Of a stretch of DNA of 64,000 nt, positions 59,085 to 64,000 are shown one piece after another. The DNA is from Janthinobacterium sp. PAMC25594. Lineage in GTDB: Bacteria; Pseudomonadota; Gammaproteobacteria; Burkholderiales; Burkholderiaceae_D. A program made the position numbers and the translations under genes. The notes below the pieces were generated by a model, which ran no database searches, was not told where the DNA came from, and saw only the letters and a list, made by a program, of their open reading frames with translations. The stretch covers positions 6,485,161-6,549,160 of the forward strand of contig NZ_CP080377.1 of the NCBI RefSeq assembly GCF_019443505.1, written 5' to 3'. The stretch's first letter is position 1. Each line of letters begins with the position of its first letter.

Positions 59085-60953
59085 TTGTTGAAAGCAGATC
59101 CACATCCCACCTTGGCCGCGCGTGCCAGGTCATGGCTGCGGCGCGCCGTGCCCGCCTTGCTGCTGTGCGCCACGGCGGCCCATGCCGCCGCGCCTGCGCT
59201 GGAGGCGGAGTTTGCCGCCGGCTTGAAGGAAGAGGGCCTGGCGGGCGCCGTCTGGAGCGAAGTCTTGTCCGACGGCACAGTCAAAGTCGGCGCGTCGGGC
59301 CAGCGCGATGCCGCCAAGCACATACCCATGCAGGCGGACACGCGCGTGCAAGTGGGCTCCGTGGGCAAGGTGGCGCTGGCGCTGGGCGTCTTGCGCCTGG
59401 TCAGCGAAGACCGGCTCACGCTCGACACGCCCTTGCAGCAGGTGCTGCCGGAACTGGCGCTGAAAAACCCGTGGCAAACCAGCGACCCCGTGCGCATTCG
59501 CCACCTGCTGGCGCATACGTCCGGCCTCGATAACGCGCGCTTCTGGCAGGCGTTCAGCCTGAATCCTGCGCCGCAGACGCCGCTGGCGGCCGCCTTCGAT
59601 GGCGGCCGTAATCTGCTGCGCGTGCGCGCCCGTCCCGGCAGCCGCTATGCGTATTCCAACATGGGCTATGGCTTGCTGGGCATGGTGATCGAGAAGGTGA
59701 CGGGCCAGCCGTATGAACGCTACCTCGATGCGCAGCTGCTGCAGCCGCTGGGCATGGCGGACAGCACGTTTACTTTCGTCACGCAGGCGGGCGTCCAAGG
59801 CGATCCGCGCCTGGCCATGGGCCACTTCGAGCATGGCGTGGCGCAAGCGGCCGTGCCGCAGTACCTGCGTCCGGCCGCGCAATTTACCACCACGGCGGCC
59901 GACATGGGCAAGCTGGCGCAATTCCTGATGGGCGACGGCAAGCTGCAGGACCAGCGCTTCATCGACCCGGCGCTGATGGGCGCCTTGTCCGAACCGGCCG
60001 GCACGGATGCGGCGCAGGCGGGCCTGGCAACGGGCCACGGCCTGGCCCTGGCCGTGCGCGACCGCCACAATGTGGTGGGCGCCTGCCACCCTGGCACGGC
60101 CGTGGGTTTTCGCGCCATGCTGTGCCTTTATCCTGAACAGAAAAGCGCCTTTTTCGTGGCCTTCAATACGGATGCCGAACAGGCCGACTATGAACGCTTC
60201 AACCGCCTGCTGCTGCGCGACCTGGAGCTGCCGCTGCGCGCGCCGGCCCCGCAGGGCACGCCCGCGCCCACGGTGGAAAACTGGCAGGGCGTGTATGTGC
60301 CGTCACCCAGCCCCATGGCCAGCATGGCCTGGGTCGATGCCGTCTTCGGCTTTATGCGCCTGAAATGGGATGGCGAGTCGCTGTTCCTGATCCCGTTCCA
60401 GGGCGAGCCGAAGGAACTGGAACCGGTGGGCGGCTTGCTGTTCCGCGCCAGCGACCGCAGCACGCCATCGCACGTGCTGATGCAGGAGGATGGCAAGCAT
60501 ATCCTCAGCGACGGCTTGCGCAGCTATGAGCGGGTGTCGATGCTGCGCATGCTGGTTTTGTGGGGCAGCCTGGCGCTGGGCATGGCGGGCTTGCTGTATG
60601 TGCTGGTGGTGGGCGTCTGGCGCGCCGCGCTGCGCAGCCTGGGGCGGGGCGACCATCTGTTCGCGCCCCTGCTGTCGCTGCTGGCGCTGCTTTTGCCGTT
60701 GCCGTTTTTCTATTTCCAGTCCTACCTGCGCCTGGGCGACGTGACCATCGCCAGCGTGCTGCTGGCGCTGGTCACGGGTGCGCTACCGCTGGCTGTGGCG
60801 TTTGGCCTGGCGCGCTGCTGGCGTAGCCGCGTCACGGCGGCCGAGGCGGGCTCGTGGGCGAAATGGGATTGGGTGGCCTTGCTGGCGGCACTGCAACTGC
60901 TGCTGGTGCTGGCCTGGTGGGGCTTGCTGCCGCTGCGTTTGTGGCAGTTGTAG
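59085..60953 (+). CDS. Membrane-anchored class C beta-lactamase-like serine hydrolase
   Basis: The 622-aa protein starts at TTG (59085 or 59088); no in-frame ATG precedes the signal peptide (RRAVPALLLCATAAHAAAPA). The periplasmic serine-hydrolase domain (about 40-380) has SVGK (Ser92, Lys95) and YSN (191-193). After a spacer domain (400-485), about four to five TM helices close the protein (from 493). Related proteins are D-aminopeptidases, esterases or PBP4B-like peptidases acting on peptidoglycan; true beta-lactam resistance is not implied. The C-terminal multi-TM tail is unusual for AmpC-type enzymes. It is convergent with the MNIO operon, 4 bp apart. Confidence 0.85.
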   Translation: MLKADPHPTLAARARSWLRRAVPALLLCATAAHAAAPALEAEFAAGLKEEGLAGAVWSEVLSDGTVKVGASGQRDAAKHIPMQADTRVQVGSVGKVALALGVLRLVSEDRLTLDTPLQQVLPELALKNPWQTSDPVRIRHLLAHTSGLDNARFWQAFSLNPAPQTPLAAAFDGGRNLLRVRARPGSRYAYSNMGYGLLGMVIEKVTGQPYERYLDAQLLQPLGMADSTFTFVTQAGVQGDPRLAMGHFEHGVAQAAVPQYLRPAAQFTTTAADMGKLAQFLMGDGKLQDQRFIDPALMGALSEPAGTDAAQAGLATGHGLALAVRDRHNVVGACHPGTAVGFRAMLCLYPEQKSAFFVAFNTDAEQADYERFNRLLLRDLELPLRAPAPQGTPAPTVENWQGVYVPSPSPMASMAWVDAVFGFMRLKWDGESLFLIPFQGEPKELEPVGGLLFRASDRSTPSHVLMQEDGKHILSDGLRSYERVSMLRMLVLWGSLALGMAGLLYVLVVGVWRAALRSLGRGDHLFAPLLSLLALLLPLPFFYFQSYLRLGDVTIASVLLALVTGALPLAVAFGLARCWRSRVTAAEAGSWAKWDWVALLAALQLLLVLAWWGLLPLRLWQL

Positions 60954-60957
60954 AACG

Positions 60958-61224
60958 TCAGATCCAGCCTGCCAGCAGCCGGCGCCACCAGCGCTGCGCC
61001 GGCCTGGCCCGGGGGCCGTGTCCGGCGCGCCCGGCCCGTTTGCTGCGATAGCTGGCCGCCGCCATCTGCAGGCCGACGCGATCCATGGCCGCCATCGCCT
61101 CCGCTTCCTGCGGCGACAAGCCATGCAGCAAGGCTTGCGCGCGGGGTTCCAGCAGGAAGGCGGCACGCACGGCGTCGTCCGTGTACAGCCTGGCCAAGTA
61201 GGTTTCCAGTGCCGGAGAACTCAT
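60958..61224 (-). CDS. 88-aa protein encoded with the MNIO enzyme, unknown family
   Basis: ATG 61224 overlaps the stop of the DUF692 gene (ATGA). The product begins MSSPALETYLARLYTDDAVR. It has a helical pattern with FLLEPRAQALLHGLSPQEAE and MDRVGLQMAAASYRSKRAGR, then a very basic tail RPAQRWWRRLLAGWI. The order (short helical domain, then Arg/Lys-rich end) fits a partner or docking protein of the MNIO enzyme. This is inferred from position and overlap only. The gene is too short and too overlapped to stand out by frame analysis, but its own frame is well formed. Confidence 0.7.
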   Translation of the reverse strand: MSSPALETYLARLYTDDAVRAAFLLEPRAQALLHGLSPQEAEAMAAMDRVGLQMAAASYRSKRAGRAGHGPRARPAQRWWRRLLAGWI

Positions 61225-62075
61225 GCGCTGCGTCCCGCGCGCAAGGCAGCGCGCGCCAATTCCAGCTGGCCCAGCACATGCTCGAACGACGGGTAATTGC
61301 CGTCGCGTTCGACGATCACCGTCAACGGTTGCGGCGCATGGCGCGCCAGCATGGTCAATAAAGCGAAGACTTCGGGCGGCACGTCGTGCAGATGGTCGTC
61401 CAGCAGGCGCTGGCCACCGCCCGGCGCCGCTATCCAGTGGCCGCCGCTCAGGTGCACGGCGCCGACCCTGTCCAGGGGCAGGCGCAGCAGCAGTTCCTCC
61501 GGTGCTTCCCCAACATTGACGGCGTTCGCATACAGGTTGTGCAGGTCCAGCAGCAGCGGCACGTGCGCGCCGTCGATAATCTGCGTCAGCCATGCGGCTT
61601 CGTTCAGCGTGCTGGCGGGAGGCTGGACCAGGGTGGCGATGTTTTCCATCAGCGGCACGCTGCCGACGATGCGCGTGGCCAGAGCGATGTTGGCGATGGC
61701 GCCGGCGGCGCTGTGCGGCGTGCGCGGCGGTGCCGCCAGGTGGCCGATTTCGACGCCGCCGGCGCGCACGAAACTCAGGTGCTCGGACCACGATTCCGCC
61801 TGCACCGTCTTCATCAGGCGCGCCATCGCATGCAGGCGGCGCCGGTCGGCGGGAATCGTCGAGGCCAGCCCCATGCCCACGCCGTGCAAGCTCACCGGCA
61901 CCTGGCGCGCCAGGCTGCACAGGGCGGCGATGTCGGCGCGCGGGGCGCGGTAATAATCGTCGGCGATCACTTCCAGCACATCGATCTGCGCCAGGTTGGA
62001 CAGGATGCCGGCAGCCAGTTCGCCGCGCCAGCCCAGGCCGACGCGGTCGCGCGCGGTTCCCTGGCTAACTGCCAC
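61221..62075 (-). CDS. DUF692 family multinuclear non-heme iron oxidase (MNIO)
   Basis: The 284-aa TIM-barrel enzyme is taken from GTG 62075 (AVSQGTARDRVGLGWRGELA); the longer frame reads through the Gly/Cys-coding tract of the upstream gene. Family landmarks: LHGVGMGLAS, ESWSEHLSFVRAGG (Glu/His metal ligands), LMENIA, LLLDLHNLYANAVN, VHLSGGHW, DDHLHDVPPEVFAL and VIVERDGNYPSFEHVL. MNIO enzymes (MbnB, TglH, ChrH) oxidise cysteines or other residues of ribosomal peptides using two or three iron ions. It overlaps the membrane protein with the Cys/Gly tail by 11 bp and the 88-aa protein by 4 bp. Confidence 0.88.
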   Translation of the reverse strand: MAVSQGTARDRVGLGWRGELAAGILSNLAQIDVLEVIADDYYRAPRADIAALCSLARQVPVSLHGVGMGLASTIPADRRRLHAMARLMKTVQAESWSEHLSFVRAGGVEIGHLAAPPRTPHSAAGAIANIALATRIVGSVPLMENIATLVQPPASTLNEAAWLTQIIDGAHVPLLLDLHNLYANAVNVGEAPEELLLRLPLDRVGAVHLSGGHWIAAPGGGQRLLDDHLHDVPPEVFALLTMLARHAPQPLTVIVERDGNYPSFEHVLGQLELARAALRAGRSA

Positions 62076-62994
62076 AGCCGCCGCCACCGCCGCAACCGCC
62101 ACAGCCGCTGCCGCCGCCATCGCCACCGCCACCGCCGCCATCACCGCCGCCCGATGACGAGTCGCCCGTGCCGCCGGACGACGAGTCCCTGCCCGTGGCT
62201 TGCCGGGGCACCGGGTACAGCTCGGCGACATACGCGTACACCGACGGCGGCAGGGCGCCCATGCCGAAGATGGCGGCCAGCAGTGCCATGTCGCCGCTGC
62301 CGCTGCCCGCCTGCAGGCGCGATGCGCGCAGGTTCAGCCGGCCAAACAGCATGCGCAGGTCGGTCAGCAGCCGCTGCGCGCTCCAGCTGGTCGCCTGGGT
62401 GCGCAAGCCGCGCAGCATGAGCAGGAAGATCGCCAGCAGCAGCGCCAGGAACAGCAGCTTGTAGTGCTGGCGGCTGATGGCGATGACGGCCTTGACGCCG
62501 GCCACCGTCACCAGCAGCCAGTGCGCCACCCAGGTGATGCGTTCGCGCCGGCGCAGCAGCGGCGGGCCGACCAGCAATTCCTGCCGCGTCAAGGTCTCCT
62601 GATAGGCGCGGCACGAAGGCAGCATCTCGGCCTGCGCGGCCAGTTCCTTGCTGTGGCCCTGGCGGCCCAGGTACAGCCGCAGCACGTCGCGTTCGATGTC
62701 ATGGCTGGCGAAGCGCAGGCTGTCGGCGCTGGCCGTTTCCAGCAGCGGGCCGTCGGCGCGCAGCAAGCCGCGGTCGACCAGCACGATGGCGGCGATCTTC
62801 ACGGCTTCGAGGGCGCCGCCGCGCAGGAAGGCGATGCGGTAAGGGTCATCGGCCAGCGACAGCTGGGCGTGCGGATTGCGCAATTCCTGGCGGATCAGCA
62901 GCTCGCGCGCGAGGTAGTACACGAGCAGGCCGAAGATCAGATAGGCCAGCAGGAACCACGGCCCGCTCCAGTCAAACGGATTGTAGCCGTTCAC
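62065..62994 (-). CDS. TIGR04222-like membrane protein with Gly/Ser/Cys-rich tail
   Basis: The 309-aa protein starts at GTG 62994 (overlapping the NTase stop as GTGA). TM1 is near 11-30. A soluble segment (40-150) leads to TM2 about 154-173 and TM3 about 179-196, then a further domain (200-265). From residue 270 the chain is almost only Gly, Ser and Asp and ends GCGGCGGGGGCGS, with Cys at 298, 301 and 307. From memory this matches the TIGR04222 domain, which ends in such low-complexity tails. The tail is the likely substrate of the MNIO enzyme. The GGN-rich tract is slippage-prone. Confidence 0.78.
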   Translation of the reverse strand: MNGYNPFDWSGPWFLLAYLIFGLLVYYLARELLIRQELRNPHAQLSLADDPYRIAFLRGGALEAVKIAAIVLVDRGLLRADGPLLETASADSLRFASHDIERDVLRLYLGRQGHSKELAAQAEMLPSCRAYQETLTRQELLVGPPLLRRRERITWVAHWLLVTVAGVKAVIAISRQHYKLLFLALLLAIFLLMLRGLRTQATSWSAQRLLTDLRMLFGRLNLRASRLQAGSGSGDMALLAAIFGMGALPPSVYAYVAELYPVPRQATGRDSSSGGTGDSSSGGGDGGGGGGDGGGSGCGGCGGGGGCGS

Positions 62995-63719
62995 CGCATC
63001 TGCTCCGCGTGCTCGCGCAGGCGTTCGGTAATGGCCATCAGGCCCGTAAAAGCGGGCAGGGCTTGCCCCGGCGCCAGGCGCGCCGTTTCGCGCGCCGCCG
63101 ACATGGCTTGCAAGGCAGAGTGCAGGGCCGGGTCGCCCAGCTGGTCGACAAACGCTTCGAGCGCCTGCTTGCCGGACTGCGCAGACTTGCCCTCCAGTTG
63201 CGCCAGCGAGGCGGCGGCCGAGCGCAGGGGGCCTGCCGCGTCGGCGATGGCGCCGGCCAGCTGTTCTTCATTCAGGCTCAATAGCATATACCGTTCGCGC
63301 ATGCGCACCTGCTGGTTCAGCAGCACTTGCCGCAAGCGCCGCAGTACGGCGTCGCGGCTGGTGTGCAGGCTGGCGAAAGGGTCGACGCCATGCAGCACCT
63401 GGTGGCGCGCGATGATGTCGGCGAACTTGACGGCGAAGGCGTCGGCGGCCTGCGTCAATTCGCTGTCGAGCAGGAACATCACCTGCAAATCGATGGCGGC
63501 GTGCGCCATGCGCAAGGGCCCGCGCAGCGCATCGGCCGCTTGCGGCGTAAAGCGTTTGAGCAGCAACAGCAGGTTGACGTCGGAGGTGGCGCGCAACTGG
63601 CCATCGGCGGCCGAGCCAAACAGCACGGCGGCGGCAAGGTCGTCACCAAACGCGCTTTGCGCGGCGGCGACAAACACATCCAGGTGGCGTTGTATCTCTT
63701 CTGGCAGCGATGGCGGCAT
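62991..63719 (-). CDS. Nucleotidyltransferase-like protein heading the MNIO operon
   Basis: The 242-aa cytosolic protein is taken from ATG 63719 after AAGGA (a GTG 15 bp upstream is less likely). The MNT-type active site is VLFGSAADGQLRATSDVNLL: the GS motif and first Asp are present, but the second Asp of D-x-D is Asn, which may reduce metal binding. The rest is helical (RLRQVLLNQQVRMRERYMLL). Related MNT-HEPN proteins transfer AMP to proteins. Here it is the first gene of the four-gene overlapping operon; its role is unknown. Confidence 0.75.
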   Translation of the reverse strand: MPPSLPEEIQRHLDVFVAAAQSAFGDDLAAAVLFGSAADGQLRATSDVNLLLLLKRFTPQAADALRGPLRMAHAAIDLQVMFLLDSELTQAADAFAVKFADIIARHQVLHGVDPFASLHTSRDAVLRRLRQVLLNQQVRMRERYMLLSLNEEQLAGAIADAAGPLRSAAASLAQLEGKSAQSGKQALEAFVDQLGDPALHSALQAMSAARETARLAPGQALPAFTGLMAITERLREHAEQMR

Positions 63720-63754
63720 GCAGTGTTCCTTCACGATGGGCGAGCTTGGTATTT

Positions 63755-63780
63755 ATAAGTTTGCAATATAGCAAACTTAT
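63755..63780 (-). promoter_or_regulatory. Perfect 10-bp palindrome before the MNIO operon
   Basis: ATAAGTTTGC-AATATA-GCAAACTTAT lies 36 bp upstream of the chosen NTase start, in an AT-rich island between serB and the operon. On the minus strand the spacer reads TATATT, a possible -10 box inside the operator. It is the classic form of a homodimeric repressor site; the regulator is not encoded in the window. Confidence 0.6.
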
Positions 63781-63817
63781 GCCATCGTGCGCGCACCGTC
63801 CGCCAGATGGCGCCAAG

Positions 63818-64000
63818 TCAGGTCAATACGTTCAGCAAGCCATCGAGTCCCACGAAGTTCAGCGCCACGTCGGCCTGCGAGCGCACCACGGGTTTGGCGC
63901 GGAAGGCCACCGACAGGCCGGCGATGCCCATCATTTTCAAGTCGTTGGCGCCGTCGCCCATGACGATGGCTTCCGCTGGCGTAATGCCCATCTGCGCGCA
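63818..64000 (-). CDS. serB: Phosphoserine phosphatase SerB (3' end only)
   Basis: The last 60 residues of a minus-strand gene are visible: CAQMGITPAEAIVMGDGAND, then LKMMGIAGLSVAFRAKPVVR, ending in NVLT. GDGANDLKM is the HAD motif IV of phosphoserine phosphatases, with SVAFRAKP typical of SerB. It makes serine from phosphoserine. The rest lies beyond the window. It is followed 99 bp later by the NTase gene, with the palindrome between, so it is probably not cotranscribed with the MNIO operon. Confidence 0.88.
   Translation of the reverse strand, partial: CAQMGITPAEAIVMGDGANDLKMMGIAGLSVAFRAKPVVRSQADVALNFVGLDGLLNVLT

Follow-up and report, generated by a model that had tools for sequence, protein, structure and literature searches.

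Alternative MNIO and radical SAM enzymes beside a membrane protein with a Cys/Gly tail, a candidate site of 5-thiooxazole formation

The soil bacterium Janthinobacterium sp. PAMC25594 carries, near the end of its 6.55 Mb single-contig genome (NZ_CP080377.1), an operon of four minus-strand genes, which encode in order a nucleotidyltransferase-like protein (NT), a TIGR04222 membrane protein with a C-terminal Cys/Gly tail (TM), an MNIO enzyme and an 88-residue protein (P88). We analyzed the operon in a window of 64,000 nucleotides (positions 6,485,161 to 6,549,160 of that contig), whose own numbering is used below. Among named organisms, the nearest relatives of the window's proteins come from Janthinobacterium. 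The link between TIGR04222 and MNIO genes is already published; what is new here is that the modifying enzyme is exchangeable, with a radical SAM/SPASM enzyme standing in place of the MNIO beside the same NT/TM pair in other lineages. With moderate confidence, we favor the explanation that the membrane-anchored tail is oxidized by the MNIO together with P88 in this operon and by radical SAM/SPASM enzymes elsewhere, that the product is likely 5-thiooxazole, and that a metal-binding or redox tail results.

The initial annotation described four overlapping minus-strand genes, and the open reading frame coordinates bear this out: the genes overlap head to tail across 60958-63734, by 4 nt (NT/TM), 11 nt (TM/MNIO) and 4 nt (MNIO/P88). 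The features are as follows.

63755-63780, strand not assigned: perfect inverted repeat upstream of the operon; its inner TTTGCTATATTGCAAA is common to most close relatives, its outer arms are not.
62991-63734, minus strand: NT, nucleotidyltransferase-like, 247 residues, with the motif FGSAADGQLRATSDVN in which DxN stands instead of DxD/DxE.
62065-62994, minus strand: TM, TIGR04222 membrane protein, 309 residues, predicted to have three membrane helices, with a disordered Cys/Gly tail at the C-terminus.
62065-62106, minus strand: codons of the terminal tail GCGGCGGGGGCGS plus stop, the proposed modified segment.
61221-62075, minus strand: MNIO (DUF692, PF05114) enzyme, 284 residues, GTG start, with the TglH iron-ligand positions present.
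60958-61224, minus strand: P88, helical, the proposed MNIO partner, resembling Os1348 and LigA-like leader domains of ribosomally synthesized and post-translationally modified peptides.

This set of four genes recurs, with its order unchanged, at all 19 other Janthinobacterium loci compared, and also in other phyla. Among the 27 Janthinobacterium genomes listed, 20 (19 relatives and the host) have a TIGR04222 gene and all 20 have the four genes together; in the family-level sample behind this count, 23 of 294 genomes scored above the TIGR04222 cut-off.

Scanning the genome collection with an NT alignment yielded 48 loci from many phyla, and at every one of them a TIGR04222 gene directly follows NT. 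An MNIO gene is present at 32 of these loci, a radical SAM/SPASM gene at 14, and both at none; the other two (L075, L080) stop at contig ends. The 14 radical SAM genes either adjoin the NT/TM pair or lie within 1.8 kb of TM or NT, and at one locus (L065) MNIO and P88 are found about 3.3 kb further on. The Janthinobacterium MNIO loci are not independent of one another, because 13 of the 32 (14 with J. fluminis, L062) come from one genus. We placed the enzyme labels on a tree built from the core regions of NT and TM (40 rows, without the tail). They need 4 changes, at least two of which are forced by the starred branches alone, and shuffled labels need a mean of 11.5 changes for the MNIO group. 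Judged from this tree, the enzyme seems to have been exchanged more than once while NT, TM and the tail were retained. This radical SAM alternative is the strongest evidence we found for the tail cysteines as the target.

To see TIGR04222 genes independently of NT, we sampled Burkholderiales (300 genomes), Verrucomicrobiota (240), Planctomycetota (199), Acidobacteriota (199), Nitrospirota (100) and Pseudomonadota (249). With the center genomes left out, a scripted recount gave 47 matches above cut-off, four of which (L098, L099, L100, L205) come from genomes also represented among the 48 NT loci. An MNIO gene lies near 15 of the 47 and a radical SAM gene near nine; none has both and 23 have neither. 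The groups differ: all six Nitrospirota genes have radical SAM, eight of ten in Acidobacteriota have MNIO, and all five in Verrucomicrobiota have neither. NT was detected at 12 of the 47, in similar proportion with either enzyme (seven of 15 MNIO, four of nine radical SAM) and at one of the 23 with neither. Thus NT implies TIGR04222, but most TIGR04222 genes lack NT and about half lack either enzyme, and we therefore limit our claim to subfamilies. Three TIGR04222 genes (L095, L096, L097) have no NT, MNIO or radical SAM gene nearby; the next gene at L095 and L097 resembles, by eye, one for a sterol desaturase/hydroxylase. The initial annotation had staked its proposal on co-occurrence of MNIO and TIGR04222, and the 15 genes above provide it. 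Antoine et al. likewise limit their MNIO-substrate proposal to a subset of TIGR04222 proteins (PMC12452194).

TM scores 70.0 bits against TIGR04222, above the cut-off of 43, and its C-terminus contains the cysteines C298, C301 and C307. Of 23 distinct Janthinobacterium TM genes, 22 retain the pattern GCGGCG(3-5)CGS, while the preceding linker varies freely; in the last 16 codons of these 23 genes both Cys codons are used (45 TGC, 34 TGT). In an alignment of 41 TM proteins, C298 and G299 are among only four invariant columns. Every MNIO or radical SAM locus of both samples has two or more Cys among the final 60 TM residues, and tails beside the two enzymes look alike. We rejected the idea that a Cys tail is restricted to MNIO-bearing loci, since radical SAM loci and most enzyme-less loci also have Cys. 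Selenocysteine read-through of the tail stop codon was likewise set aside: in the loci read, no tail-like Gly/Cys run follows the stop, with one possible exception at L009 (the same locus as L064), where the ten codons past the TGA stop of TM read CDGNDDCNGG, by chance or as a recoded stop. Locus L092 has, after its intact TIGR04222 gene, another TIGR04222-like copy that is divided between two open frames (L092:7589-8323).

The predicted model of TM (mean predicted local distance difference test score 85.5) shows three long membrane helices (12-38, 144-174 and 180-198), the first separated from the second by a soluble domain. At 233-243 it has only an 11-residue helix, and its end is disordered. 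No Foldseek match was found at E values up to 0.001, and VIA matches are only at the level of a common helical arrangement. By charge distribution, residues 33-150 and 198-235 are inside. This predicts a cytoplasmic tail, on the side where the enzyme is expected, provided that 236-254 does not cross the membrane. The suggestion that the tail is modified in place, as part of a membrane-anchored protein, fits this predicted topology. For other TIGR04222 members, the published view of Antoine et al. is that the tail is periplasmic (PMC12452194).

What are the radical SAM enzymes? SbtM (TIGR04082) has an equivalog cut-off of 350 bits, and nine of the 22 radical SAM neighbors of TIGR04222 pass it, at 452 to 538 bits: six of 14 (L072, L078, L079, L081, L082, L086) and three of the remaining eight (L189, L190, L191). 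The SbtM matches start at profile position 195 to 198 of 516, the N-terminal part of the model being absent. Twenty of the 22 assemblies (12 of 14 and all eight) have no PF05114 match and keep the tail Cys; the majority come from metagenomes, with no completeness given, and for one of the eight the listed completeness is 100%. Two genomes of the radical SAM type do have MNIO genes elsewhere, away from NT/TM: L101, L103 and L104 in the genome of L084, and L102 in that of L074. Within 2.5 kb of the nine SbtM-type genes, we found no other open reading frame of 30-260 codons with repeated C[GS]nC motifs; the single match is TM itself. At L078:7631-9358 and L082:2112-3938, the TIGR04222 gene and the SbtM-type gene are separated by a TrkA-N/ion-channel gene. 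The operon has no SbtM-type gene; this comparison concerns its relatives only.

These observations suggest the following scheme. The operon would make a membrane-anchored protein with a C-terminal Cys/Gly tail, which a dedicated enzyme would oxidize post-translationally. In this operon the enzyme would be the O2-dependent MNIO, helped by P88; other lineages would use a radical SAM/SPASM enzyme that belongs, or is close, to the SbtM family. The likely product, at one or more of C298, C301 and C307, would be 5-thiooxazole, because characterized members of both families turn Cys into thiooxazole with loss of four hydrogens. MNIOs with DUF2063 partners make 5-thiooxazole, with 8 Da lost for two repeats (PMC12668002); SbtM takes four hydrogens from Cys or selenocysteine peptides, and nuclear magnetic resonance identified a thiooxazole (PMC11002830). 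That two unrelated families with the same product adjoin one kind of Cys/Gly tail is what makes 5-thiooxazole our best guess. Instead of a secreted peptide, the outcome would be a tail tethered to the membrane that binds metal, probably copper, or is redox-active. It is tempting to go further and regard MNIOs and SbtM-type enzymes as naturally interchangeable, both forming the same 5-thiooxazole on the tail of one kind of membrane-anchored protein, often paired with a dead nucleotidyltransferase; we offer this wider statement tentatively, as a possibility that may well fall short.

Several observations weigh against this scheme. The operon MNIO falls below the equivalog cut-off of BufB (NF050167), at 167.8 versus 310 bits, which leaves its exact product uncertain, and a profile search found DUF2063, the partner type of MNIOs shown to make 5-thiooxazole (PMC12668002), in none of the four operon proteins. 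Thirteen of the 22 radical SAM enzymes lie below the SbtM cut-off and below the other listed maturase cut-offs, and may do other Cys chemistry such as thioether formation. Of the 23 TIGR04222 genes with neither enzyme nearby, 17 nevertheless retain two or more Cys within the final 60 residues; the tail may thus be useful unmodified. At two loci the MNIO gene is damaged, frameshifted in L064 (also seen as L009/L099) and truncated in L094 (also seen as L011/L205), by decay or assembly error, yet the neighboring tail still has Cys.

Such findings could be read to mean that both enzymes modify the tail cysteines and make different products, for example 5-thiooxazole by MNIO or SbtM and a thioether by others, the shared need being only a Cys-derived crosslink or a blocked thiol. 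This would suit the sub-cut-off enzymes (eight of 14 and five of eight), which, where listed in full, score similarly to several other SPASM families, and it would suit an operon MNIO that is not a BufB equivalog. We consider it unlikely, given that nine of the 22 adjoin the same kind of tail and score above the SbtM cut-off, and that the tails of both classes look alike. A further reading, in which the enzymes modify some other protein or an unannotated peptide while the tail binds metal or forms disulfides unmodified, draws on the 23 enzyme-less genes and on the third of TIGR04222 genomes that lack an MNIO according to Antoine et al. (PMC12452194). It would have to account for the strict one-or-other enzyme pattern beside the NT/TM pair and for the failure to find an alternative Cys-rich small frame near the nine SbtM-type genes, and appears improbable to us.

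The MNIO scores 199.7 bits against PF05114 (cut-off 25). The residues at TglH iron-ligand positions (H64, H99, E144, D177, N180, H208, D226, H228 and E256) are invariant in all 19 aligned MNIOs; seven of these positions were mapped through the TglH alignment, H64 and H99 by motif only. Against BufB, five relatives of the operon MNIO score 168 to 180 bits. TglH-type chemistry was considered and not adopted: TglH requires Asn73, which by motif corresponds to Val66 in the operon MNIO, a correspondence that is only suggestive. The host genome has a second MNIO (G000:C1:2572571-2573353, L001), and because this one passes the BufB cut-off (352.2 versus 310 bits), a bufferin-type system is probably also present.

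That MNIO enzymes need a partner protein was part of the initial annotation, and P88 fits this role. It accompanies MNIO at 31 of the 32 NT loci, the exception (L061) stopping at a contig end, and at 14 of the 15 MNIO loci in the sample drawn independently of NT. In contrast, it is found with radical SAM at none of the 14 NT loci and none of the nine sampled loci, and at none of the 23 with neither enzyme. P88 contains no cysteine and no core peptide, its gene follows that of the MNIO, and it scores 21.4 bits against the Os1348/NHLP family (NF038399), below the cut-off of 40. We infer that it is the MNIO partner.

NT scores 21.8 bits against the Polbeta profile (cut-off 26.9) and 17.2 bits against a further Pfam cut-off of 21; all its scores lie below the curated cut-offs. 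Its second catalytic carboxylate is replaced by Asn: the motif reads D-V-N here and D-V/I/L-N in the NTs read, also in those found by a second search pattern alone, with Gln in one distant relative (L176). Because of this replacement NT is probably a pseudoenzyme, and would serve as a non-catalytic companion of TM. The opposite view, that NT is an active nucleotidyltransferase regulating TM or MNIO, can point to the GS motif and first Asp, kept in nearly all NTs, and to a distant similarity to AadA-type enzymes. With DxN instead of DxD/DxE, and with no third acidic position conserved among ten aligned NTs in our reading of the alignment, we rejected it as highly improbable. The regulatory nucleotidylation step raised in the initial annotation loses its footing accordingly, as the second carboxylate is never acidic in the NTs read and NT is about equally frequent with either enzyme.

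The palindrome upstream of the operon, ATAAGTTTGC-TATATT-GCAAACTTAT, is real and perfect in the host, as had been described, and proved to be the weak part of that description, its outer arms not being conserved. Of 11 close relatives (L047-L055, L058, L059), five (L049, L050, L054, L058, L059) have a broken outer left arm, and TTTGCTATATTGCAAA is the only part that all 11 share. Among 16 further loci, the core is present in L057 and missing in the other 15. A genome search with AAGTTTGC-N6-GCAAACTT returned the operon site as the only exact one and two more at 2 mismatches. As a conserved operator the palindrome is thus a weak candidate. A consensus scan of 60850-64000 found no sigma-70-like promoter or terminator pattern.

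The proposal that the C-terminal tail is the MNIO substrate gains support from the 15 MNIO neighbors and from the radical SAM swap, but it had already been published: Antoine et al. (2025) propose the Cys tails of a TIGR04222 subset as MNIO substrates (PMC12452194). The main text of that article uses none of the terms "nucleotidyltransferase", "NTase" and "SbtM", and has "radical SAM" in the reference list only. In that main text and among the open-licence papers listed by our searches, we found no published mention of an MNIO/radical SAM exchange or of an NT pair beside TIGR04222. If an unrelated thiooxazole-forming enzyme replaces the MNIO beside the same protein, the product becomes predictable: 5-thiooxazole, with a loss of 4 Da per Cys and absorbance near 305 nm. 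This would extend 5-thiooxazole chemistry from small peptides to membrane proteins and offer a clear example of one protein modification for which unrelated enzymes substitute for each other.

Among known systems, the TIGR04222-MNIO clusters described by Antoine et al. resemble the operon in that a TIGR04222 protein with a Cys-rich C-terminus adjoins an MNIO, without DUF2063 (PMC12452194). NT shares the GS...SD motif of the Pol-beta superfamily with AadA/MntA-type nucleotidyltransferases, and differs from them in its Asn and its sub-cut-off scores. Os1348 of Pseudomonas sp. Os17 (6lk7; PMC7726476) and the LigA-like leader domain of SonA differ from P88 in the features given above: no cysteine, no core peptide, and a gene placed after the MNIO. 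The characterized substrates of SbtM are precursor peptides (PMC11002830), whereas its relatives here have no small Cys-rich frame near the nine genes. Captophorins and bufferins (FonB, BufB, HvfB; PMC12668002) share with the operon the MNIO superfamily and Cys-Gly sites, the 5-thiooxazole chemistry being theirs and only presumed here; the aspartate D258 of the ERD motif in the operon MNIO can be equated, by motif only, with FonB-Asp249, the proposed base (PMC12668002). Those systems use peptide precursors and a DUF2063-type partner (PMC12668002), with secretion (Sec) signals according to Antoine et al. (PMC12452194). The operon has neither a DUF2063 partner nor a small Sec-signal precursor peptide; its candidate substrate is an integral membrane protein and its candidate partner the Os1348/NHLP-like P88. 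If the two enzyme families do install the same 5-thiooxazole, the system would be a membrane-tethered relative of captophorins, existing in oxygen-using and radical SAM forms.

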